A stretch of 64,000 bases of DNA from Polynucleobacter sp. UB-Piko-W3 (lineage in GTDB: Bacteria > Pseudomonadota > Gammaproteobacteria > Burkholderiales > Burkholderiaceae), in NCBI RefSeq assembly GCF_018881635.1, contig NZ_JACVPY010000002.1:1260525-1324524 (forward strand). Reading direction: 5' to 3'. Made by a program: the position numbers and the translations under genes. This document shows, piece by piece, positions 5,081 through 43,437 of this stretch. Below the pieces are notes generated by a model that was not told the origin of the DNA, searched no databases, and saw only the letters and a list, made by a program, of their open reading frames with translations. Position 1 is the first letter of the stretch, and every line of letters begins with the position of its first letter.

Positions 5081-5836
5081 TTATTGTTGACTCAGGTTTG
5101 GAGAGTCCTGGAAGCCATTCGATCTATACGTTAGTACCAATGTATCGCGATAGCCGTATTCTTCAAGCGGCTGAATTGGAGTAGATTCATGAATCATCCG
5201 CTCATCATTCATGAGCAATAGAGACCAGGGTTGAGCTAGCGTAAAGCGTAATCCCGCTGAACCGTTGGTATCAAATATTCTGGTCTCACCACCTTTAATA
5301 CCTACCCGGTCTAATAAAAATACTGCTACAAAATCGACTCCATCACGGTGCGCACCTTCAGGTGTTGGACGACCAATGCCATCAGTAGTATCAATCCTAA
5401 ATTGATGGGTTTCTACAAACCAAGTAGTAACTGGCTTTAAACCACTCAAAACCTGAGCAAGACCTACCAAGAGAGACTGCCAAGCTGGATCATTTAATAA
5501 AGCTGCCTGAACCGGCTCAAACCAACGCTCAATTCCGCCATGTAGTGCGTTGTAATTAACTGACTGCCAGTGCGCACGATGCGGCACTATATGAAGATGC
5601 TCGCCTTTGATCTCATAACTCGCATGACGACGAAAACGGTAACGGCCACCATCTTTTAAATAGGGATCGCGAGGCAAGCCCTCCCAAAACTGAGTTAAGC
5701 TCTGCAAATTTTCTAGCGATACCTGACTGATTTCAGCAACACTTTCAGCCGATACCACAGCATACCCCTGGGAACTTAAAGCCTGTGCAAGCTCATTGGC
5801 TGAAGTAAGTGGTGGCGCTAGTGTGGCATTAGTCAT
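5081..5836 (-). CDS. 2-oxoglutarate/Fe(II) dioxygenase family protein (PF10014-like)
   Basis: A 251-residue cytosolic protein. The motif THQFRI, then PEGAHRDGVDF, then GGETRIF, with a later HESTPI, gives the H-x-D...H facial triad of the 2OG-Fe dioxygenase family that includes bacterial free-amino-acid hydroxylases such as isoleucine dioxygenase. This suggests hydroxylation of an amino acid or similar small molecule, but the substrate is not evident. It is convergent with the Bug gene at 4089 (8-bp gap) and 33 bp downstream of the next minus-strand Bug gene, with which it may be co-transcribed. Confidence 0.8.
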   Translation of the reverse strand: MTNATLAPPLTSANELAQALSSQGYAVVSAESVAEISQVSLENLQSLTQFWEGLPRDPYLKDGGRYRFRRHASYEIKGEHLHIVPHRAHWQSVNYNALHGGIERWFEPVQAALLNDPAWQSLLVGLAQVLSGLKPVTTWFVETHQFRIDTTDGIGRPTPEGAHRDGVDFVAVFLLDRVGIKGGETRIFDTNGSAGLRFTLAQPWSLLLMNDERMIHESTPIQPLEEYGYRDTLVLTYRSNGFQDSPNLSQQ

Positions 5837-5869
5837 AAGCTTATTTTATGGGCAATGAGTGGCAGAGCA

Positions 5870-6844
5870 TTAATCAAGCTGAGCGCCAGATGCTTTCACA
5901 ATTTTTGCCCATTTAGCCAACTCATCCTTGAGCAAGGCCCCTAACTTCGCAGGAGGCACTGGGCTAAGGTCCAAGCCCTGTGCAGTAAGCTTCTCACGAA
6001 CATCAGCCCTTGCCATGACTTTTTCCATTGCAAGCTGATTTTTCTTGATGACATCGGCACTCACCCCTATTGGAGCAAAAGTTGCCACCCAAACCTCACC
6101 CACACAATCTGGATAAGTTTCTGCAATCGTTGGGATTTCTGGAGCCACACTAGAACGCTTAGCAGAACTAATCGCAATGGCCTGCAACTTACCAGCTTTA
6201 ATGTAATTGATTGCTGATGGCAGACTTGCAAAAGCAAAAGGAACCTGACCACCCAAGACATCATTAATTGCAGGAGCAACCCCTTTATAAGGAATATGTT
6301 GCATCTCAATACCAGCACTGGTATTGAGCATTGCACCAAGCAGATGGCTAATCGTTCCATTGCCAGCAGAAGCATAGGATAGTTCGCCAGGCTTCCTCTT
6401 TGCTGCAGCCACAACCTCAGCTAACGTTTTATAAGGGGATCCCGGTGGCGATACCAATACATAGGGCGTAGCGCCGATGTAATAGAGCGGTACAAAATCA
6501 TTGACCGGATCAAAGCCTGGGTTCTTATAAAGAGATGGATTAATAGCTTGTGCGCTATTGATAGTTAATAGCAAGGTATAGCCATCCTTAGCAGAACGTG
6601 CAACGCCCTGAGTACCAATATTGCCGCCTGCACCAGGTCTGTTTTCAACCACAATAGAAGCGCCAATTGCCTCACCAAAAGCAGGCGCAATTAAACGCGC
6701 AACAATGTCATTAGTGCCCCCAGCAGCCTGTGGAACCACCAAATTAATCGGCTTATTAGGATATGGTTGTGCAGCCAACTGGGCAGCAAAACATAAGCTA
6801 AGTAGGCTAAATAAGTATTTCCATTTACTTTGATTGATTTTCAT
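5870..6844 (-). CDS. Bug family (TctC-type) substrate-binding protein
   Basis: A 324-residue protein with a signal peptide ending near CFAAQLAAQ, then PYPNKPINLVVPQAAGGTND, VENRPGAGGNIGTQGVAR and AKDGYTLLL, the hallmark Bug ligand loops. It lies just downstream (8 bp) of the TAXI-type receptor gene and upstream of the 2OG dioxygenase gene on the same strand, so all three may share a transcript. No permease gene is adjacent. Its divergence from the other Bug copies in the window implies a separate ligand, which is unknown. Confidence 0.9.
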   Translation of the reverse strand: MKINQSKWKYLFSLLSLCFAAQLAAQPYPNKPINLVVPQAAGGTNDIVARLIAPAFGEAIGASIVVENRPGAGGNIGTQGVARSAKDGYTLLLTINSAQAINPSLYKNPGFDPVNDFVPLYYIGATPYVLVSPPGSPYKTLAEVVAAAKRKPGELSYASAGNGTISHLLGAMLNTSAGIEMQHIPYKGVAPAINDVLGGQVPFAFASLPSAINYIKAGKLQAIAISSAKRSSVAPEIPTIAETYPDCVGEVWVATFAPIGVSADVIKKNQLAMEKVMARADVREKLTAQGLDLSPVPPAKLGALLKDELAKWAKIVKASGAQLD

Positions 6845-8230: not shown

Positions 8231-9415
8231 TTACTGACGCACTTGGTCGATGACTAGCCGAATGTTATTCGCTCCGACTTTGACCGTTTGTGGGGCAGAA
8301 ATTAAATCTCCCGACTCTGGCATTGCCATACCCGTTTTAGAAATTCTGACCTCGATAGAGGCTTCGGATAATTGCGATAGTGGTGAACTTGGATTCATCG
8401 CCAAAGCATCTGTTAATAAGAAGCTCATCGGAAACTCTGAAACAGACGTTCTTAGCACTGCAACCGGCATACGCTCGCCTGGCTTGCGTGCGATAACCAT
8501 CATAATATCGCTAGACCTCACTTTAGACTTGATATCGGCTGCTATCTCGATCTTGCCACTAATGCCTTTCGTATTAACGCTAGCTTTAGATGAGAGGCCA
8601 CCTTTGGCACGCGCATCAGCAATCGATGCCTCGATTGAACGCGCATCCTCTGTTCCTGGCGGCAATTGTTGGGCAAGCTTTTCCCATGTCTGTACGGCAG
8701 CCTTGTAATTACCTGCGGCATAAGAGGCTGTTCCAGAAAGCCATATCGCCATTAAGTTATTGGGATCTAATTTCAGCGCTTGATTAATCAGTTTTAACGG
8801 TTTACCAGTGAAGCTTCCATTAGCATTAGAGGCCAATACATCTGCATAGTCTGCCAAAAGCTGTGGATCAGAGTCAATAAAGTTTCCAGCGCGCTCATAA
8901 GCTTTTGCAGCTTCTACATTGCGCCCTAGGATTCGATAAGAGCGAGCTAACATTACCCAGCCCTGTAAATTAGTTGGATCTTGCTCCATCTTCGCTGCAA
9001 ACTGGGCAACCATTTTTTCAACACCGTCTTGTGTCATTGGTTGTTGAGTATTTTTCTCAGCGATACGAGTGGCATCACCCAAGAAAAAATAGAAGCCCGC
9101 TGAAAGTACTGTGATAAATATACACAGGCCAATCACAGTCAACTTGCTTGAACCCATTACAGAGCGATCATCCTCTTCGTTTGTATCCTGAAAGAGGCGT
9201 TGACGCATTTCGGCATGGGCGATTTCATAATCAGCGTCATTAATGGAGCCTGCTCCACGCTCTAGTTCCAATTTATCGAGTTCTTCACGATAAATCGCAG
9301 CATTCATTTGACGACGAGAAGTTGCCTCTACTTTAGGCGGGAAAATAAATGGGCGCAATAAGAGAACAAGTACCAAGACTAGTAGTAAGAGGGCGGAAAT
9401 TAGAAAACTAGTCAT
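8231..9415 (-). CDS. ccmI: c-type cytochrome biogenesis protein CcmI
   Basis: A 394-residue protein ending the ccm operon. Residues 3-22 form a membrane segment. A cytoplasmic loop with AAIYREELDKLELERGAG matches the CcmI/CycH N-terminus. A second helix (about 95-115) is followed by TPR repeats (LQGWVMLARSYRILGRNVEA; QALKLDPNNLMAIWLSGTAS) and a C-terminal beta-rich domain. CcmI binds the C-terminus of apocytochrome c and presents it to the CcmFH ligation complex. The start overlaps the ccmH stop by 4 bp (ATGA), showing translational coupling. Confidence 0.95.
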   Translation of the reverse strand: MTSFLISALLLLVLVLVLLLRPFIFPPKVEATSRRQMNAAIYREELDKLELERGAGSINDADYEIAHAEMRQRLFQDTNEEDDRSVMGSSKLTVIGLCIFITVLSAGFYFFLGDATRIAEKNTQQPMTQDGVEKMVAQFAAKMEQDPTNLQGWVMLARSYRILGRNVEAAKAYERAGNFIDSDPQLLADYADVLASNANGSFTGKPLKLINQALKLDPNNLMAIWLSGTASYAAGNYKAAVQTWEKLAQQLPPGTEDARSIEASIADARAKGGLSSKASVNTKGISGKIEIAADIKSKVRSSDIMMVIARKPGERMPVAVLRTSVSEFPMSFLLTDALAMNPSSPLSQLSEASIEVRISKTGMAMPESGDLISAPQTVKVGANNIRLVIDQVRQ

Positions 9416-21630: not shown

Positions 21631-21692
21631 GTCTGAGCAAGTTTAAGCCTTATTGAATAAACTAGTTGATAACCACACTATCGAAAGATGCT

Positions 21693-36738: not shown

Positions 36739-36921
36739 TTACGAGTTAGGCTTGATCTTATCGGAGTCCTGCTTTTGGCTTTTATCGATAGCTGTTTGTA
36801 GATTCAAGCTAGGTGCGGACATTTTTTCACCGTCCCACACTTGGCCACACCAACACTCGCCTGCATCATTAATGATGCAAACACCTGAGCCACAGCAGCG
36901 CTTATCTGGAGTCTTCATCAT
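36739..36921 (-). CDS. Small Cys-rich protein next to alternative oxidase
   Basis: A 60-residue protein with six cysteines packed at the start (TPDKRCCGSGVCIINDAGEC, then WCGQVWDGEKM). The spacing suggests a metal- or Fe-S-binding knuckle. I know such short proteins as unnamed conserved proteins; no function is established. Its ATG overlaps the stop of the alternative oxidase gene by one base (TAATG), so the two are translated from one message. Confidence 0.6.
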   Translation of the reverse strand: MMKTPDKRCCGSGVCIINDAGECWCGQVWDGEKMSAPSLNLQTAIDKSQKQDSDKIKPNS

Positions 36922-37532
36922 TAAGCCTTGTCATAGTCACTAGCAAATTGATGGTTTGTATCCCGGTGGTGGGCTTCATCATTGCGAACAGCAATCACGA
37001 CATCTCGTAGAGTTGCGCTAGGTTCAAGCTTCCAGTAATCAATAGCAATTTGGGGGGCTGGAACATTCGGTATGCGCCCCTCATCAATTTCTTTTAAATA
37101 CTCGGTATAGGAATAGACTGCCTCTTCCTCAAAATAGCCGACGATACGATGGGCAGTTCTAGGAAAGAATACATAAATAATGAAAAAGAAATTCCAGAAA
37201 ATAGCCTGCGCGATCAAAACAAGGTAGCGCTCAAACCGATTGGGATTTGCAATCTCGATGAAAGTCATGAGATGCATTCTTTCATTCTCAGCCTCTGCTA
37301 AAAGTGTTCGTATCTTTGGCCCATAGCCAACCTTCATACTCCGCAGGCTTGTTAAATGAGTCCACATTCCGGCAACCATTCCGGGGACTCCTGCCACAGT
37401 TTCTAAAACAACAGCTCGGTGCCCATAGCGCTTCTTAAAAAAGGTGTCTGCAAAAAAGCGCATCCCTTTAGTAAAAAATAAGGCAACTCGATCAGAAAAT
37501 CCAAGGGGTATGTAGTGTTCAGTCTGCTTCAT
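36921..37532 (-). CDS. Alternative oxidase (cyanide-insensitive ubiquinol oxidase)
   Basis: About 203 residues. The diiron motifs of AOX are all seen: [18 protein letters not shown] (E and ExxH), [17 protein letters not shown] and [16 protein letters not shown]. Length fits compact bacterial AOX. The enzyme takes electrons directly from ubiquinol to oxygen without pumping protons, bypassing bc1 and cytochrome oxidase, and resists cyanide and NO. I start at ATG 37530-37532; a GTG three codons upstream is an alternative. The upstream region holds an NsrR-like inverted repeat. Confidence 0.93.
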
Positions 37533-37555
37533 ATAAATCACTTTAAATGATTCTT
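37533..37555 (-). promoter_or_regulatory. NsrR-like inverted repeat upstream of alternative oxidase
   Basis: On the minus strand AAGAATCATTTAAAGTGATT (plus TAT) forms an inverted repeat and matches a remembered proteobacterial NsrR consensus (AAGATGCATTT, then AAAATGCATCTT) at 16 of 23 positions. It overlaps the expected transcription start after a -10-like TAAAAT (37558-37563), a position suited to repression. Confidence 0.4.
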
Positions 37556-37583
37556 ACATTTTACGCCCACATGAAAATGACGC

Positions 37584-37622
37584 GCCCCTAGGCCAACCGT
37601 CCTAGAGGGGCTTAGCCTAGGG
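37584..37622. repeat. Nested inverted repeats in the AOX-SDR intergenic region
   Basis: CCCTAGGC (37586-37593) pairs perfectly with GCCTAGGG (37615-37622). GCCCCTAGG (37584-37592) can instead pair with CCTA-ga-GGGGC (37601-37611). The two hairpins exclude each other. They lie between divergent alternative oxidase and SDR genes. Confidence 0.6.
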
Positions 37623-37732
37623 AAATCATGGTAATCACAATAAAGCAGCCCTAAAAAGCCAAATCAGTCCCTATTGAGCAGGTTTAAGACTTCTTCACTA
37701 AACTGAATGAAAGCGACATTATTTAAGGCACC

Positions 37733-38428
37733 TTGAAACTGCTTCCAAACCCTTTTTCTGCCCTCATTATTGGCTCCTCTGGAACCATTGGCACGGCGTT
37801 TATGGAGCTACTTAAAAACAACCCCCAATGCTCAAATGTCTTGGGTATTCATCGTCATTCAGAACATAGCATTGATTACCAAGATCCAGAGTCTATAGAA
37901 TCTTGTGCCACAGCATTCTCTCAGGAAGCACCTTTTCAACTCATCATTAATACGATTGGAGTCCTGCACACCAACCACTCGATGCCTGAAAAGAAGCTAG
38001 ACGATCTGAATACTGAACAACTAGAAGAGCTGATGAAGATCAACGCTATTGGTCCAGCACTCACCGTTAGGCACTTCTCTAAATTACTGGATCCCAAACA
38101 TAGCATCATGGTTAACCTGTCGGCTAAAGTTGGCAGCATTGAAGATAACCGCCTTGGTGGTTGGTATAGCTACCGAGCTTCGAAGGCCGCGCTCAATATG
38201 CTGATCAAAACAGCGTCTATTGAATGGGCGCGTACCAAACCGAACACTGCTCTGATCGCAATGCATCCTGGTACCGTGAACTCAAGACTCTCAAAACCAT
38301 TTCGCGGCGAGCAGATTGGTAGGCCTGCGCACGATGCAGTGGCAGATATGTTTCGAGTGATTGAAAGTCTCAAGAAAGAAGATTCAGGAAGCTTTCTTTC
38401 TTACTCAGGCGAAAGATTGCCCTGGTAA
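37733..38428 (+). CDS. Short-chain dehydrogenase/reductase (SDR) family protein
   Basis: A 231-residue protein. It has the nucleotide motif IIGSSGTIGTAFMELL, IINTIGVLHTN, VNLSAKVGSIEDN and the active site SYRASKAALNMLIKTASIEW (YxxxK), then MHPGTVNSRLSKPF, like CsgA/C-factor SDRs. The start is TTG at 37733 with TAAGG upstream; no ATG suits the dinucleotide motif. Substrate unknown. It is divergent from alternative oxidase and convergent with the DUF2256 gene. Confidence 0.85.
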   Translation: MKLLPNPFSALIIGSSGTIGTAFMELLKNNPQCSNVLGIHRHSEHSIDYQDPESIESCATAFSQEAPFQLIINTIGVLHTNHSMPEKKLDDLNTEQLEELMKINAIGPALTVRHFSKLLDPKHSIMVNLSAKVGSIEDNRLGGWYSYRASKAALNMLIKTASIEWARTKPNTALIAMHPGTVNSRLSKPFRGEQIGRPAHDAVADMFRVIESLKKEDSGSFLSYSGERLPW

Positions 38429-38436
38429 AAGCAAAT

Positions 38437-38470
38437 CGCTGATTAAGGTCTACGCCTTAGGCGCTTTTTT
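38437..38470 (+). terminator. Possible terminator after the SDR gene
   Basis: TTAAGG / CCTTAG plus an outer CGC/GCG form an imperfect stem followed by CTTTTTT. It overlaps the 3' end of the minus-strand DUF2256 gene. The stem is weak. Confidence 0.4.
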
Positions 38471-38605
38471 CCTACAAGCGTCTGAACAGTATTTAACAAA
38501 CTCCCAATTTTTGGCCCAAGACTTTCTCCAGATCATCTCTTTTTTGCAGACAACGCAAATTTTGTTTGGTAGATAACTTTTATTGCCCTTAAAGGAAGTA
38601 CTCAT
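38450..38605 (-). CDS. DUF2256 domain-containing small zinc-ribbon-like protein
   Basis: A 51-residue protein, easily missed because of its size. It reads LPNKICVVCKKEMIWRKSWA, then KNWEFVKYCSDACRKK, the exact DUF2256 pattern with two CxxC-type knuckles. The ATG at 38603-38605 lies 8 bp after the stop of the photolyase gene. DUF2256 is often found next to or near cryptochrome/photolyase-like genes, as here. Molecular role unknown; a zinc ribbon that helps the photolyase is possible. Confidence 0.85.
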   Translation of the reverse strand: MSTSFKGNKSYLPNKICVVCKKEMIWRKSWAKNWEFVKYCSDACRKKAPKA

Positions 38606-38613
38606 ATCAATCC

Positions 38614-40149
38614 CTAGAGATCATTGAGATGATTGAGGAGGTGATCGGCATGCCCCACGATCGACTCTTGATCCTCATCGCTAATTCTCTTGAGATTGGC
38701 AGTCATCAGCTTTGTACGTGGACTGGATTCAAACTGACTGCGATGCTTAATTAAAAAATTCCAATACAAGGTTGTTACAGGGCAAGCAGTCTCTCCAAAT
38801 CGAATATCTGGCTTGTACTGACACGAGCTGCAATAATTACTCATGCGCTTGATATAGGCGCCACTAGCAATATAGGGCTTACTAGTGAAGCGTCCACCAT
38901 TTGCAAACAAAGCCATGCCAGCGGTATTGGGAAGCTCCACCCACTCAATCGCATCGACATAAATTGCCAAGTACCAATCACAGACTTCTGATGGCAAGAT
39001 CTCGGCTAGTAGAGCAAAGTTGCCGGTCACCATGAGGCGCTGAATGTGATGGGCATAGCCATACTGCAGCGTTTGGCCGATCGCATCTTTCATGCAGGCC
39101 ATATTAGTTTGACCTGTCCAATACCATTGAGGCAAGGGTCTTTGATGGTTGTAATAATTATCTTGAGCCATCTTGGGCATATCTAAGTAATACATGCCTC
39201 TTACAAATTCTCGCCAGCCTAATATTTGACGAATAAACCCTTCAACCGTAGAAAGATCTAAGGAGTATTTTTTCCAGGCCCGTAAAACAGCAGCAATCAC
39301 TTCTCTTGGATTAAGCAACTTCAGATTAAGCGAGCTCGACAAAATAGAATGCCAGCCAAACGGGGTATCAGTCCACATCGCATCCTGAAATACCCCAAAG
39401 TTTCTTAAGCGATATTCCACAAAATAGTCTAGCGCTCCTAGAGCTTGGGCTCGAGTTACTGGCCACCGAAAATGATCTAGTGAGCCAGGGTGATTTGGAT
39501 AGGTAGCGTTAACAAACTCAAGAACCTCTTTGGTAACTGCATCTGGCTCAAATAAAACGGGGGCCTCAATGATGCCAGGGCCTTTTTTTGAATAGGGCTT
39601 ACGATTATCTTGATCAAAATTCCACTGCCCACCCTCAGGGTTTCCTTCAGAATTAACCAGAATATTGTGGCGCTTACGCATTAGGCGATAAAAGTACTCT
39701 AGCCGTAATTCTTTTTTATCAGCCACCCATTCAACAAATTCTTGATGCGAGCAATAAAAGTGATCGTCCTCACGCATCTCCAGCCTAAGCGATAGCTCTC
39801 TTGCTAATGCTTCTATCTGCTGCTTTAAGCGCCATTCGCCTGGCTCAACGCAGATAAGGTTTGTAATCCCGCCTTGGATCATTTTTTCTTTTAAGGTCTC
39901 TACGATTGACAGAGGCGAGCTTTGAATATAAGTCAGGGGGTAATTAAGCTTTTTTAACTGAGCAGCAAAGTGCCGCATTGCAGATAAAAACAGAGCAATC
40001 TTGGCTTTATGGGACCAAACATATTGCGCCTCTGATATTGACTCAATCATGACTATTTCATCAGTTTTGAAATCAAAATCTCTGAGGGCGGCCCCTTTTA
40101 AATCGAGCTGATCTCCCAGAATCAGCACTAAGCGTTTAATAGACTTCAT
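38614..40149 (-). CDS. Cryptochrome/photolyase family protein, Fe-S bacterial (FeS-BCP/PhrB-like)
   Basis: A 511-residue photolyase-related protein. The N-terminus KSIKRLVLILGDQLDLKGAA matches the FeS-BCP antenna domain; the FAD domain holds LGWREFVRGMYYLDMPKMAQ, YGYAHHIQRLMVTGNFALL and IYVDAIEWVELPNTAGMALF. Four cysteines at 352, 440, 443 and 456 have the same spacing as the 4Fe-4S ligands known from Agrobacterium PhrB. These enzymes repair (6-4) photoproducts with light. The start overlaps the TIGR03643 gene by 4 bp. Confidence 0.92.
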   Translation of the reverse strand: MKSIKRLVLILGDQLDLKGAALRDFDFKTDEIVMIESISEAQYVWSHKAKIALFLSAMRHFAAQLKKLNYPLTYIQSSPLSIVETLKEKMIQGGITNLICVEPGEWRLKQQIEALARELSLRLEMREDDHFYCSHQEFVEWVADKKELRLEYFYRLMRKRHNILVNSEGNPEGGQWNFDQDNRKPYSKKGPGIIEAPVLFEPDAVTKEVLEFVNATYPNHPGSLDHFRWPVTRAQALGALDYFVEYRLRNFGVFQDAMWTDTPFGWHSILSSSLNLKLLNPREVIAAVLRAWKKYSLDLSTVEGFIRQILGWREFVRGMYYLDMPKMAQDNYYNHQRPLPQWYWTGQTNMACMKDAIGQTLQYGYAHHIQRLMVTGNFALLAEILPSEVCDWYLAIYVDAIEWVELPNTAGMALFANGGRFTSKPYIASGAYIKRMSNYCSSCQYKPDIRFGETACPVTTLYWNFLIKHRSQFESSPRTKLMTANLKRISDEDQESIVGHADHLLNHLNDL

Positions 40150-40418
40150 TTATTTTTATACTGCGTTGGGCAATAGGCGCGATCAACTAACTTACTTCGA
40201 AGCGCAACGTGCTTTGTAGCCCTTCCAGTAACGCGCTTACGCCATAACTCAAAAGAGCCTCGCTTAAGTTCATGGCGCATCAATTGAATGACTTGTGGTT
40301 CAGATAGGCCGAATGATTTCTCAATTGCATCAAATGGGGTCCGATCTTCCCAGGCCATCTCAATCAGGCGAGATATATCAGATTCAGAAAGGATTTTTGA
40401 TGAGAATTTTGCCACCAT
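40146..40418 (-). CDS. TIGR03643/DUF2805 family protein
   Basis: A 90-residue basic protein. It shows LSESDISRLIEMAWEDRTPF, DAIEKSFGLSEPQVIQLMR, RGSFELWRKRVTGRATKHV and a final YCPTQYKNK, matching TIGR03643. A helix-turn-helix-like part (AIEKSFGLSEPQVIQLMR) suggests nucleic-acid binding, not proven. It heads the minus-strand unit TIGR03643-photolyase-DUF2256, with a 4-bp overlap to the photolyase gene, so a role in light-dependent repair is likely. Confidence 0.87.
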   Translation of the reverse strand: MVAKFSSKILSESDISRLIEMAWEDRTPFDAIEKSFGLSEPQVIQLMRHELKRGSFELWRKRVTGRATKHVALRSKLVDRAYCPTQYKNK

Positions 40419-40475
40419 GCAAGTTTATGACTTATTTACTAAACTTGTACGACACATGAATATTTTAAAAACCAG

Positions 40476-40823
40476 ATGATTGGCAAAATTCGTAAGAAGT
40501 TGATTTCGCTTGCGCCAACACCATTCATAAAAGTGGTAGATGTGGCCTGCCCTATCTGCAACCGCCCTATCCCTGATTCCCAAAAAGATGCTCATCACCT
40601 CATACCAAAGTCCAAGGGTGGAAAAACTACCGAGTACCTACACCGCATTTGTCATCGTCAAATACATGCCCTCTTTACCGAAACTGAACTAGCCACGCAA
40701 TTTAATACTGCGGCGGCTCTTCAAGAGCATCCCGAAATGCAACGATTTATTCATTGGGTTAAATCTAAGCCCAATCACTTCTATGAAAAATCACGTAGAA
40801 GTTCTCGATTGAAAGAAATCTAA
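40476..40823 (+). CDS. HNH endonuclease family protein
   Basis: A 115-residue protein. The HNH domain shows CPICNRPIPDSQ, DAHHLIPKSKGGKTTEYLHR and ICHRQIHALFTETELATQFN, with the zinc CxxC and catalytic HH...H residues in place. Small HNH proteins of this type are common; the target is unknown. It is divergent from the photolyase unit (57-bp gap) and ends in a bidirectional terminator shared with the rpoD/tRNA transcript. Confidence 0.85.
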   Translation: MIGKIRKKLISLAPTPFIKVVDVACPICNRPIPDSQKDAHHLIPKSKGGKTTEYLHRICHRQIHALFTETELATQFNTAAALQEHPEMQRFIHWVKSKPNHFYEKSRRSSRLKEI

Positions 40824-40852
40824 CTCTTACCTAAGGCGAGTCTCTAAAGACA

Positions 40853-40880
40853 AAACCCTCACCATTTCTGATGAGGGTTT
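40853..40880. terminator. Bidirectional terminator
   Basis: AAACCCTCA / TGAGGGTTT (9 bp) with a 10-nt loop, followed by T-rich sequence on both strands. It lies between the HNH gene and the tRNA at the end of the rpoD operon. Confidence 0.8.
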
Positions 40881-40887
40881 GCTTTTC

Positions 40888-40964
40888 TGGTGGGCCCACC
40901 AGGACTTGAACCTGGGACCAAAGGATTATGAGTCCTCTGCTCTAACCAACTGAGCTATAGGCCC
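40888..40964 (-). tRNA. tRNA-Ile2 with CAU anticodon (lysidine-modified type)
   Basis: A 77-nt tRNA with encoded CCA. The acceptor GGGCCTA pairs with TGGGCCC; the D arm contains AGCTCAGTTGGTTAGAGC, the anticodon loop CTCATAA (CAT at 40928-40930) and the T arm GGTTCAAGTCC. A CAU anticodon could mean elongator Met or Ile2; the GGACTCATAATCC stem-loop and the position after rpoD favour Ile2 (TilS substrate). This needs tRNAscan-type or TilS-motif checking. It lies 14 bp after the rpoD stop and is likely cut from the same transcript. Confidence 0.9.
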
Positions 40965-40977
40965 GTTAATCTTTGGA

Positions 40978-43437
40978 TCAATCTTCCTCGAGGAAAGTCT
41001 TGAGCTTGTCGCTACGGCTTGGATGACGCATTTTTCTCAAGGCCTTCGCTTCAATCTGACGTATACGCTCACGCGTTACATCAAACTGTTTGCCTACTTC
41101 TTCGAGAGTATGGTCTGTACTCATCTCCACACCAAAGCGCATACGCAATACTTTTGCTTCACGTGGTGTTAATGAATCCAGAACATCTTTGACAACGTCA
41201 CGCATAGATTCATGCAGAGCTGCTTCGGCTGGAGCCAAGGTATTGCCATCCTCAATGAAGTCGCCCAAATGAGAATCTTCATCATCGCCAATTGGAGTCT
41301 CCATCGAGATTGGCTCTTTAGCAATCTTCATGATCTTACGAATCTTGTCTTCCGGAATCTCCATCTTGAGCGCCAGGGTTGCAGCATCTGGCTCATGGCC
41401 AGTTTCTTGCAAGATCTGACGGCTGATACGATTCATCTTATTGATCGTCTCAATCATGTGCACTGGAATACGGATGGTTCTTGCTTGGTCAGCAATAGAG
41501 CGGGTAATTGCTTGACGAATCCACCATGTTGCATAAGTAGAGAACTTATAGCCACGACGGTATTCAAACTTATCTACCGCTTTCATCAAGCCAATATTAC
41601 CTTCTTGAATCAAGTCCAAGAACTGCAGACCACGGTTGGTATATTTCTTGGCAATGGAGATTACTAGACGTAAGTTAGCTACCGTCATCTCACGCTTAGC
41701 CTCACGGGTACGCTTCTCACCTGCAGTCATCTGCTTATTCACTTCTTTTAACTCTGGCAGCGGAATGACTACGCGGGTCTGAATATCAATCAACTTCTGT
41801 TGAAGTTCCTGAATGGCAGGCACGTTACGTTGTAAAAGTGGGCCGTAGGGCTTGTTCTCTTTGAGAAGCTTATCAGTCCAGGTTAGATTCATTGCCATCT
41901 TCGGGAAGTCTTTTAATACTTCACCACGATTGACACCAATCTTATCTACTAACAAACTCACAATGCCGCGCTCTAGCTTCCATACTTGGTCAACCTGAGA
42001 GCGCATAGTGTCACATAACTTCTCAACACTTTTCGCTGTTAAGCGGAAACCTAATAACTCGCCACGAATGAGATCTTGCGCCTTGATATAAGCAGGACAG
42101 TTATAACCATCCTTATCAAAAGCACGACGCATTTTGTCGGCTTGCGTGCGAACGATGGCAAATTTCTCGAGGGAGATTTGTTTTAACTCTTCGAGCTGTT
42201 TAGCATTGGCTGCTGCAGCGGCAGCACCTCCGCCGCCACCTTCATCATCACCTTCATCTTCCTCAGCATTAGGATCAATCTCTGGCTCTTCGGGCCCCAA
42301 CTTAATATCTTCAGCATTTGGATCTACCAAGCCATCCACAAACTGATCAATCTCGATCTCGCCAGTAGTAATCTTGTCCACGTTACTCAAGATTTCACTA
42401 ATAGTGACTGGGCAGGCAGCTAAGGCCATCACCATATCTTTGAGGCCAGCCTCAATCTTCTTCGCAATCACAATCTCGCCTTCGCGAGTCAGAAGGTCTA
42501 CAGTACCCATCTCACGCATATACATACGGACTGGATCGGTAGTGCGGCCAAATTCTGAATCAACTGTAGAGAGAGCTGCTTCAGCCTTTTCTTCAGCCTC
42601 TTCTTCAGAAGCTGCAGCTTCCGTGTTGTCAGACAGAATTAATGTTTCTGCGTCAGGAGCCTGCTCATAAACAGTAATACCAATATCGTTCAATAAGCTG
42701 ATCAAGGTTTCTAATGCATCAGCATCAGACAACTCATCAGACATCACGTCATTCATTTCACCATGGGTTAAATAACCCTTGGACATACCCATCTTGATCA
42801 AGGTCTTCAAACGAGCGCGGCGTAACTCCTGTTGCTCTTCGGTGCCTAATTGCTGAGCTGCGAATTCTTTTAAGAGTGCTTTCTCTTTTGCTTTGCGCTC
42901 ACGTGCTTTTTGACGATCCGTTAAAACTGGCTCAGCGCCATCAGAAGGAGCTTCTACTTTAGCCTTGCGACCGCGCTTTTTCTCTTCCTCAACTACTGGG
43001 GCAGTAACTTCGGCTGCCTTTGCTTTTTTACCTTTAATTTCTTCAGCCTTTGCTACTGCAGAAGCTTTCACTTTTTTTACTGGCTCGGGCTTGGCGGCTT
43101 TAACTTTAGTAGACGCTGTTTTAGCAGCAGCCTTCAGTGGTTTTGCTGGGGCCTTCACCGCCTTCACAGGCTTCGCTTTTTTAGCCACTGGTTTAGTAGC
43201 AGCTTTTGCTTTTGAAGCAGGCTTCGCTTTTTTAGCTGCCGGCTTAGCAATTGCTTTTGCTTTTGAAGCAGGCTTGGCAGCAACCTTCACTGGTTTAGCT
43301 GGAGCTTTCGCTTTCTTGGCTACTGGTTTAGCAGCAGCCTTTGCTTTTGGCTTAGCGGCGGCCTTCACTGGTTTAGCTGAAGCTTTCGCTTTCTTGGCTA
43401 CTGGTTTAGCTGGTTTTTTGGTCTTGGTATTAGGCAT
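40978..43437 (-). CDS. rpoD: RNA polymerase primary sigma factor RpoD (sigma-70) with basic N-terminal extension
   Basis: An 819-residue sigma factor. Region 1.1 lies around [20 protein letters not shown]; region 2 around [20 protein letters not shown] and [20 protein letters not shown]; region 4.2 is [20 protein letters not shown]. Before region 1.1 lies a ~165-residue Ala/Lys/Pro-rich tract (repeats of [10 protein letters not shown] type), and an acidic, Gly/Ala-rich insert lies between 1.2 and the rest ([12 protein letters not shown]). E. coli RpoD has 613 residues, so most of the extra length is this tail. It closes the rpsU-yqeY-dnaG-rpoD operon. Confidence 0.96.
43080..43437 (-). repeat. 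Degenerate direct repeats encoding the Lys/Ala/Pro-rich RpoD tail
   Basis: Within rpoD the first ~120 codons are built of repeated units (for example GCTTTCGCTTTCTTGGCTAC at two sites near 43302 and 43382, and GCTTTTGAAGCAGGCTT at two sites near 43213 and 43260), encoding [19 protein letters not shown] motifs. It looks like slippage-prone repeat expansion. Confidence 0.75.

Follow-up and report, generated by a model that had tools for sequence, protein, structure and literature searches.

A locus of Polynucleobacter sp. UB-Piko-W3 raises the question of why a photolyase of the iron-sulfur (Fe-S) type should share an operon with two tiny proteins from uncharacterised families, and whether these proteins serve that enzyme, photorepair in general, or another branch of the response to sunlight. 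The locus lies in a stretch of 64,000 nucleotides (assembly GCF_018881635.1, contig NZ_JACVPY010000002.1, positions 1,260,525 to 1,324,524 of the forward strand; hereafter the window, with positions counted from its first letter) of a 2.05-Mb genome; in named genomes, the closest matches to it come mostly from Polynucleobacter. On the minus strand of the window, the genes of a TIGR03643/DUF2805 protein of 90 amino acids (aa; 40146-40418), the photolyase (511 aa; 38614-40149), and a DUF2256 protein (51 aa; 38450-38605) follow each other in this order. The stop codon of the TIGR03643 gene and the start codon of the photolyase gene share a 4-bp ATGA overlap at 40146-40149, and 8 bp (38606-38613) separate the photolyase from DUF2256; these coordinates confirm the compact three-gene operon described in an earlier, sequence-only reading of this DNA. 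We regard the three genes as one operon of a regulon for sunlight or ultraviolet (UV) stress, in which DUF2256 and TIGR03643 may act as helpers of photorepair rather than as dedicated Fe-S loaders, a view that we hold tentatively and whose chances we place just short of even.

The photolyase and its known relatives

The photolyase matches PF04244 (DPRP) with E 7.9e-74, and its closest solved structures by sequence are CryB (3zxs, residues 3-508) and PhrB (5kcm and 4dja, residues 5-500). Its Fe-S identity, as well as the spacing of its cysteines as in the 4Fe-4S ligands of PhrB, had been proposed from the sequence and both hold up, with C352, C440, C443, and C456 spaced like PhrB 350/438/441/454 (PMC3204975). 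At a constant offset of 2 around the cysteines, W344, H368, W392, Y426, and Y432 correspond to PhrB W342, H366, W390, Y424, and Y430, which are residues of demonstrated importance (PMC4619345), and the counterpart of PhrB Y460 is likewise present, shifted by 2. Judged by these features, the protein joins a known family as a new member and bears the hallmarks of the prokaryotic 6-4 Fe-S photolyases (FeS-BCP); an Fe-S cluster and repair activity are predicted for it. Light-driven reversal of 6-4 photoproducts is the established activity of this family. The FeS-BCP enzymes PhrB of Agrobacterium, CryB of Rhodobacter, SePhrB, and that of Caulobacter resemble the photolyase by near full-length matches, while the latter differs from them in sharing one operon with TIGR03643 and DUF2256 and in having a new dyad box upstream. 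No mention of partners of either type was found for PhrB and SePhrB in the available text of PMC3204975, PMC4619345, and PMC9178010, and the accessible portions of the literature on the names DUF2256 and TIGR03643 yielded nothing that links either family to photolyases.

Association of the small families with photolyases

We looked for five families in a single sample of 200 Pseudomonadota genomes, with 14 control genomes alongside. DPRP (the Fe-S photolyase type) was present in 38 genomes, DUF2256 in 36, TIGR03643 in 12 (including a shorter, divergent match in G087), FAD_binding_7 (other photolyases and cryptochromes) in 88, and BLUF, our light-sensor control, in 49. DUF2256 and DPRP occurred together in 31 of the 36 DUF2256 genomes against a background of 38/200 (p 1.7e-24); Fisher tests take genomes as independent, and the genus-level counts, which were computed too, gave 27/29 (p 4e-19). 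Similarly, TIGR03643 was accompanied by DPRP in 11 of its 12 genomes (p 3e-8) and by DUF2256 in 10 (p 6e-7). BLUF was associated overall as well, both with DPRP (p 1e-4) and with DUF2256 (p 1e-6). Within the 88 FAD_binding_7 genomes, however, the BLUF-DPRP association falls to p 0.38 and that of BLUF and DUF2256 to p 0.058, while DUF2256-DPRP (p 6e-12) and TIGR03643-DPRP (p 2e-4) are kept, and because of this difference general light exposure is not a full explanation of the link. A DPRP or FAD_binding_7 match was present in all 36 DUF2256 and all 12 TIGR03643 genomes, the sole photolyase match of G167 being to FAD_binding_7 below the family cut-off (23.4 of 27 bits). Among the controls, Caulobacter and Synechococcus elongatus had both DPRP and DUF2256, Haloferax had DPRP without DUF2256, and the E. 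coli genome had neither DUF2256 nor TIGR03643. Fe-S photolyases have been described in Caulobacter vibrioides (PMC12082625) and Synechococcus elongatus (PMC9178010).

Physical proximity follows the same lines. DUF2256 lies within 3 kb of DPRP (measured between match starts) in 14 of the 31 shared genomes, be it upstream, downstream, or divergent, and within 3 kb of a FAD_binding_7 photolyase in G016, G050, G067, G135, and G138, i.e. near one or the other in 19 of 36 genomes in all. For TIGR03643, we examined the best 80 of at least 583 confirmed loci in named genomes, where 26 photolyase genes fall within 4 kb (608 kb of sequence) compared to 4 at a distance of 4-8 kb (535 kb); any photolyase was seen in 23 of these loci and DUF2256 in 16, and outside the 11 close loci (L084-L093, L095) the numbers are 13/69 and 5/69, respectively. 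Nine of the close loci L084-L093 keep the gene order TIGR03643-photolyase-DUF2256; the tenth, L087, reads TIGR03643-DCC1-chalcone-DUF3833-photolyase, and DUF2256-DASH is located nearby. Linkage of the three families, named as a check when the module was first described, is thus borne out by both the 200-genome co-occurrence and the gene order of the close loci.

The set is also kept in rearranged form in Acinetobacter plasmids, Leucothrix (L131), Marinicella (L111), Paraglaciecola (L152), and Rhodoferax (L107). In ten Acinetobacter plasmids the TIGR03643 and photolyase matches are 195 bp apart, and in the two inspected, TIGR03643 faces DUF2256-photolyase. Two Vibrio plasmid regions with TIGR03643 have a photolyase 3-4 kb off; on the Pseudoalteromonas THAF3 plasmid, DUF2256 lies about 100 bp from TIGR03643 and a FAD-binding-domain protein is encoded further away, and no photolyase was seen in the Nostoc and Spirosoma TIGR03643 plasmid regions. 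A Vibrio parahaemolyticus plasmid, one of four DUF2256 plasmid regions inspected, carries SDR-photolyase-DASH beside DUF2256. In 9 of 13 loci devoid of the dyad box described below, DUF2256 lies immediately ahead of TIGR03643 and the stretch examined contains no photolyase; the 13 comprise L095 and 12 of the 16 congeners that have TIGR03643 but no box. One of the other four, L035, belongs to G150, whose genome contains DPRP. These neighbourhoods therefore connect the two small families with one another and with photolyases generally.

Some further observations concern the same neighbourhoods. Halomonas/Vreelandella loci have a conserved gene set beside TIGR03643, apparently due to shared ancestry, and a cupin protein is encoded close to TIGR03643 in L084, L106, L116, L121, L127, and L145, which presumably resembles the anti-sigma factor ChrR. 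On the Acinetobacter plasmid L073, nudC (NAD+ diphosphatase) is located at 8307-9080, beyond the photolyase. The TIGR03643 match of the Spirosoma plasmid (L077, 6001-6228) has two in-frame stop codons and is therefore probably a broken copy. DUF2256 is found on 57 Pantoea plasmids and stands alone in the one inspected.

A dyad box and a putative regulon

Nine close loci, among them that of the window, have dissimilar DNA upstream of TIGR03643 except for one block directly before the start codon. The core of this block, AGTTTA-N12-TAAACT, is a dyad present at three sites of the window, all on the minus strand (40422-40445, 37681-37704, and 21640-21663; 3 compared to 0.39 expected), and a search of the whole genome with up to one mismatch to a longer pattern returned three sites only, all inside the window. 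The first, a putative operator or promoter element, ends 3 bases before the TIGR03643 start codon and is shared with a divergent gene for a small HNH protein (40476-40823, plus strand) that appears to be related to HlpB with an NCBIfam score below the cut-off (68 of 130 bits). B. subtilis hlpB is reportedly tied to AddAB repair. The second copy, with one mismatch, lies 28 bases before the start of a gene for an SDR family oxidoreductase (37733-38428, plus strand, convergent with the operon) and 139 bases from the start of an alternative oxidase gene. The third is situated between a minus-strand group, i.e. a DCC1-like thiol-disulfide oxidoreductase (PF04134, 21220-21630), a chalcone isomerase-like protein (PF16036, 20672-21223) overlapping DCC1 in the same direction, and a DUF3833 protein (PF12915, 20120-20671) directly after it, and the divergent DUF2237 gene (PF09996, 21666-22067, plus strand). 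SDR, DCC1, and DUF2237 are putative regulon members by virtue of their boxes.

Conservation across the genus supports joint control of these genes. With one mismatch allowed, the pattern AGTTTANNNAANAAGNCNTAAACT has 71 sites in 42 of 61 Polynucleobacter genomes, 1-3 per genome, compared to one site for the reversed pattern in the same genomes. For 69 of the 71 (all but two of the window's own), stretches of 2.7-6.9 kb were read and compared with 14 query proteins, and all 69 have the start of one or more set genes within 400 bp. The two further window sites likewise precede a gene of the set, and the majority of the 69 are flanked by two set genes. TIGR03643 is found at 39 of them, DCC1 at 26, the divergent HNH gene at 26, SDR at 25, DUF2237 at 16, the chalcone gene at 2, and the photolyase itself at 1. 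Across the 69 sites, conservation lengthens the arms to GCnAGTTTA and TAAACTTGC and includes a near-invariant AATAAG at the centre. Judging from its distances to the start codons, the box occupies the place expected for the -10 region of a transcript that is leaderless or has a short leader. Putative joint control of the operon, the oxidoreductases, and the other genes via the box is supported by the 71 conserved sites, and the operon is one arm of a compact regulon, probably one for sunlight stress. The genome's FAD_binding_7 photolyase (C1:11023) has no such box. An operator common to several genera was considered and rejected, as only diverged look-alikes were found (L035, L094).

Light or photo-oxidation as the signal is suggested by gene content and by analogy to the regulons of Pseudomonas and Vibrio (PMC9758184, PMC5241685). 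In the light-inducible LitR/PplR cluster of Pseudomonas, a photolyase is co-regulated with an SDR and unknown genes, as proposed here, and the operator likewise consists of two 6-base arms spaced 12 apart, though the arms are T(G/A)TACA there and AGTTTA/TAAACT here (PMC9758184). The ChrR/MerR blue-light regulon of Vibrio cholerae induces photolyase and cryptochrome operons together with hypothetical genes (PMC5241685), whereas no ChrR/MerR genes of that kind were identified in the window. The LitR box T(G/A)TACA-N12-TGTA(C/T)A has no exact match within the window, and a MerR_1 (PF13411) search of the whole genome gave two frames of 119 and 110 aa and no MerR of LitR size (~320 aa), although a LitR helix-turn-helix (HTH) could escape PF13411. 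The dyad box is new here. A scan of 37400-41000 returned 6 promoter-like sites where 6.1 were expected and 1 terminator-like site where 3.7 were expected, and an Rfam scan of the window gave one tRNA and nothing else. The alternative oxidase (PF01786, 36921-37541) near the second box is followed by a cysteine-rich protein of 60 aa (36739-36921) without a Pfam match.

The two small proteins

The DUF2256 protein matches PF10013 with E 2.8e-18 (66.2 bits, cut-off 25), and C17, C20, C40, and C44 are invariant in 17 aligned sequences. Together with the listing of DUF2256 in the TRASH metal-binding clan (PMC4047054), these four cysteines agree with the zinc-binding type assigned to it from the sequence. 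Basic and Trp residues are conserved as well (WRK..W...W..VKYCS), and the predicted model is a small knuckle with a mean predicted local distance difference test score (pLDDT) of 77.5. The CX2C...CX3C knuckle is common to members of the TRASH clan such as zf-FCS, YacG, and MYND, and structural matches of the model to an FCS finger (2w0t; Z 3.0, 38 residues, 3.7 A) and to YacG (4tma; Z 2.8, 36 residues, 2.4 A) are weak; unlike these knuckles, DUF2256 is a stand-alone protein of 51 aa. Similarity to the gyrase inhibitor YacG is also weak by Foldseek (probability 0.54, E 1.0), and the YacG family PF03884 is matched by 1 of 17 DUF2256 members (E 0.008). The DUF2256 profile gave nothing significant against the sequences of solved structures (best E 0.35). 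DUF2256 is among three domains named as frequent in bacterial proteins no longer than 50 aa (PMC11796252).

The TIGR03643 protein exceeds the curated cut-off of its family (E 2.2e-34, 117.4 bits, cut-off 66.55) and also matches PF10985 (DUF2805; E 1.8e-33, 115.1 bits, cut-off 22.5). Its predicted model (mean pLDDT 77) consists of helices at 12-22, 29-36, 40-50, and 53-63, a short fifth one at 69-72, and a basic tail of low confidence. The HTH-like character noted from the sequence is weakly supported: the model is helical, but HTH matches are marginal (NirdL-like_HTH in 16 of 94 members, best E 0.039) and confident fold matches were absent. The best hit of a fold search had E 2.3, which does not imply a new fold; in a second comparison a spliceosome chain scored highest (Z 4.7, 46 residues, 2.4 A), and the profile found nothing significant among the sequences of solved structures (best E 0.14).

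Relatives on viral contigs

A relative of TIGR03643 is encoded on 80 viral contigs. One of them, the Acinetobacter-plasmid-like L164, carries TIGR03643 together with the photolyase and DUF2256. Many members of the viral subfamily on large uncultured phage contigs (L166-L240) end in RFKSKNQK. Six of ten proteins from four viral contigs other than L164 match PHROG families, while the one viral TIGR03643 protein tested, that of L205, matches none. Among these contigs, L218 encodes thymidylate synthase and an endonuclease (UvdE by Pfam), L205 GroEL and an HNH endonuclease, and L194 a DNA ligase and a sigma factor; near viral TIGR03643, a flavodoxin-like protein is found in 39 of 80 loci (7 with weak scores) and thymidylate synthase in 20 of 80. 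INPHARED phage records contain no TIGR03643 match. When phage records were searched for TIGR03643 and DUF2256, the sole hit was weak (E 0.02) and coincided with an endolysin gene of a single phage, represented by two records. A single-protein query, which reaches close relatives only, found no Fe-S photolyase in viral contigs.

Two side observations may be added. On L218, a viral contig of 380 kb, UvdE (5460-6383) is located beside thymidylate synthase and TIGR03643, and a phage UV-repair theme built on it was rejected given that UvdE occurs in L218 only among the loci searched. A viral subfamily of DUF2256 (L246-L266, L268-L274) has KCSERCRR instead of YCSERCRR, and its contigs, about 40-56 kb where long, are perhaps proviruses.

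Competing explanations

Several observations weigh against a helper role of the small proteins in photorepair. DUF2256 is missing from 7 and TIGR03643 from 27 of the 38 DPRP genomes, and in the 200-genome sample only the window's own genome has TIGR03643 adjoining DPRP. No photolyase was seen in the stretch examined around TIGR03643 in 57 of the best 80 loci, nor was one annotated within 5 kb in three of the four DUF2256 plasmid regions, where the PLSDB gene tables are incomplete. DUF2256 is also encoded on viral contigs whose examined stretches contain no photolyase, and 20 large viral records of the 80, possibly fragments, had neither a FAD_binding_7 photolyase nor DUF2256 when searched whole (DPRP was not searched). 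PhrB-type enzymes function in E. coli without the small proteins (PMC9178010). As for the box, light control is read from gene content, and the 17 sites that this genome has at up to two mismatches are not above the 38 of the reversed control.

The alternative that survives best places the small proteins in the same photo-stress regulon, in another branch such as RNA, translation, NAD caps, or gyrase, so that the link to photolyases would reflect co-regulation and habitat and not a shared step. It is a serious possibility, if a somewhat doubtful one. The regulon also includes SDR, DCC1, DUF3833, and DUF2237 genes without a known direct role in repair, DUF2256 is weakly YacG-like, and both small families occur on viral contigs where no photolyase was found. 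Moreover, DUF2805 lies in a network spoke of translation domains in a correlation study of marine metagenomes (PMC3597751), a further point against a role in photorepair, and is fused to NADH pyrophosphatase in a rare architecture (PMC6856373). On the other hand, the association with DPRP survives among genomes with another photolyase while that of BLUF does not, and the adjacency of DUF2256 recurs with several photolyase types in differing orientations.

TIGR03643 might instead bind the box and so regulate its own gene along with the other members of the regulon, which we consider improbable; regulation was the other role suggested by the sequence-only reading. Of the genes preceded by a box here, no other is predicted to have an HTH-like core (by model and marginal HTH matches), the spacing between box and TIGR03643 start is identical at 37 of the 39 sites examined, all 40 box genomes with TIGR03643 have a box before it, and the genome lacks a LitR-sized MerR in the search above. 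Against this stand the congeners, of which 56 of 61 have TIGR03643 (40 of the 42 with a box and 16 of the 19 without; Fisher p 0.17): these 16 lack a box at up to one mismatch, G268 and G273 have a box and no TIGR03643 match, and G241 keeps two boxes even though its TIGR03643 frame has one stop. Scans of 70 loci besides L084-L093 found no box before TIGR03643 either. Because of the statistics of joint presence and the boxes of G241, TIGR03643 is a possible, unproven box binder.

That the small proteins load or protect the 4Fe-4S cluster or the antenna of the photolyase, loading having been one role suggested by the sequence-only reading, is very improbable: the tight operon, the cysteine-rich DUF2256, and the insolubility of PhrB under conditions expected to leave it cluster-free (PMC4619345) speak for it, but 5 of 36 DUF2256 genomes lack DPRP, and a dedicated loader is unlikely because DUF2256 lies beside FAD_binding_7 photolyases in the five genomes named above and because E. 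coli, with neither small family, yields SePhrB with a cluster and repair activity as well as soluble AfPhrB (PMC9178010, PMC4619345).

Implications for sunlight repair

If the operon does belong to a sunlight-stress regulon with helpers of photorepair, a regulator responsive to light or reactive oxygen species would act at the box and the box genes would be made together. The photolyase would reverse 6-4 photoproducts using light, and DUF2256 as a zinc knuckle and TIGR03643 as a small basic helical protein might help photorepair in general by binding nucleic acid or repair proteins, e.g. by helping photolyase to reach or hold lesions on covered DNA. A bolder version, which we think unlikely, is that DUF2256 and TIGR03643 form a conserved two-protein helper system of photoreactivation that binds DNA or photolyase and raises cellular repair, is wired by a 30-bp operator into the compact regulon, and had its TIGR03643 half borrowed by large marine phages for sunlit hosts.

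The box offers a handle for isolating its regulator. Two common uncharacterised families gain a definite biological setting, namely photolyases as a whole rather than just the Fe-S enzyme, and with it DUF2256 and TIGR03643 gain a testable role in sunlight repair.

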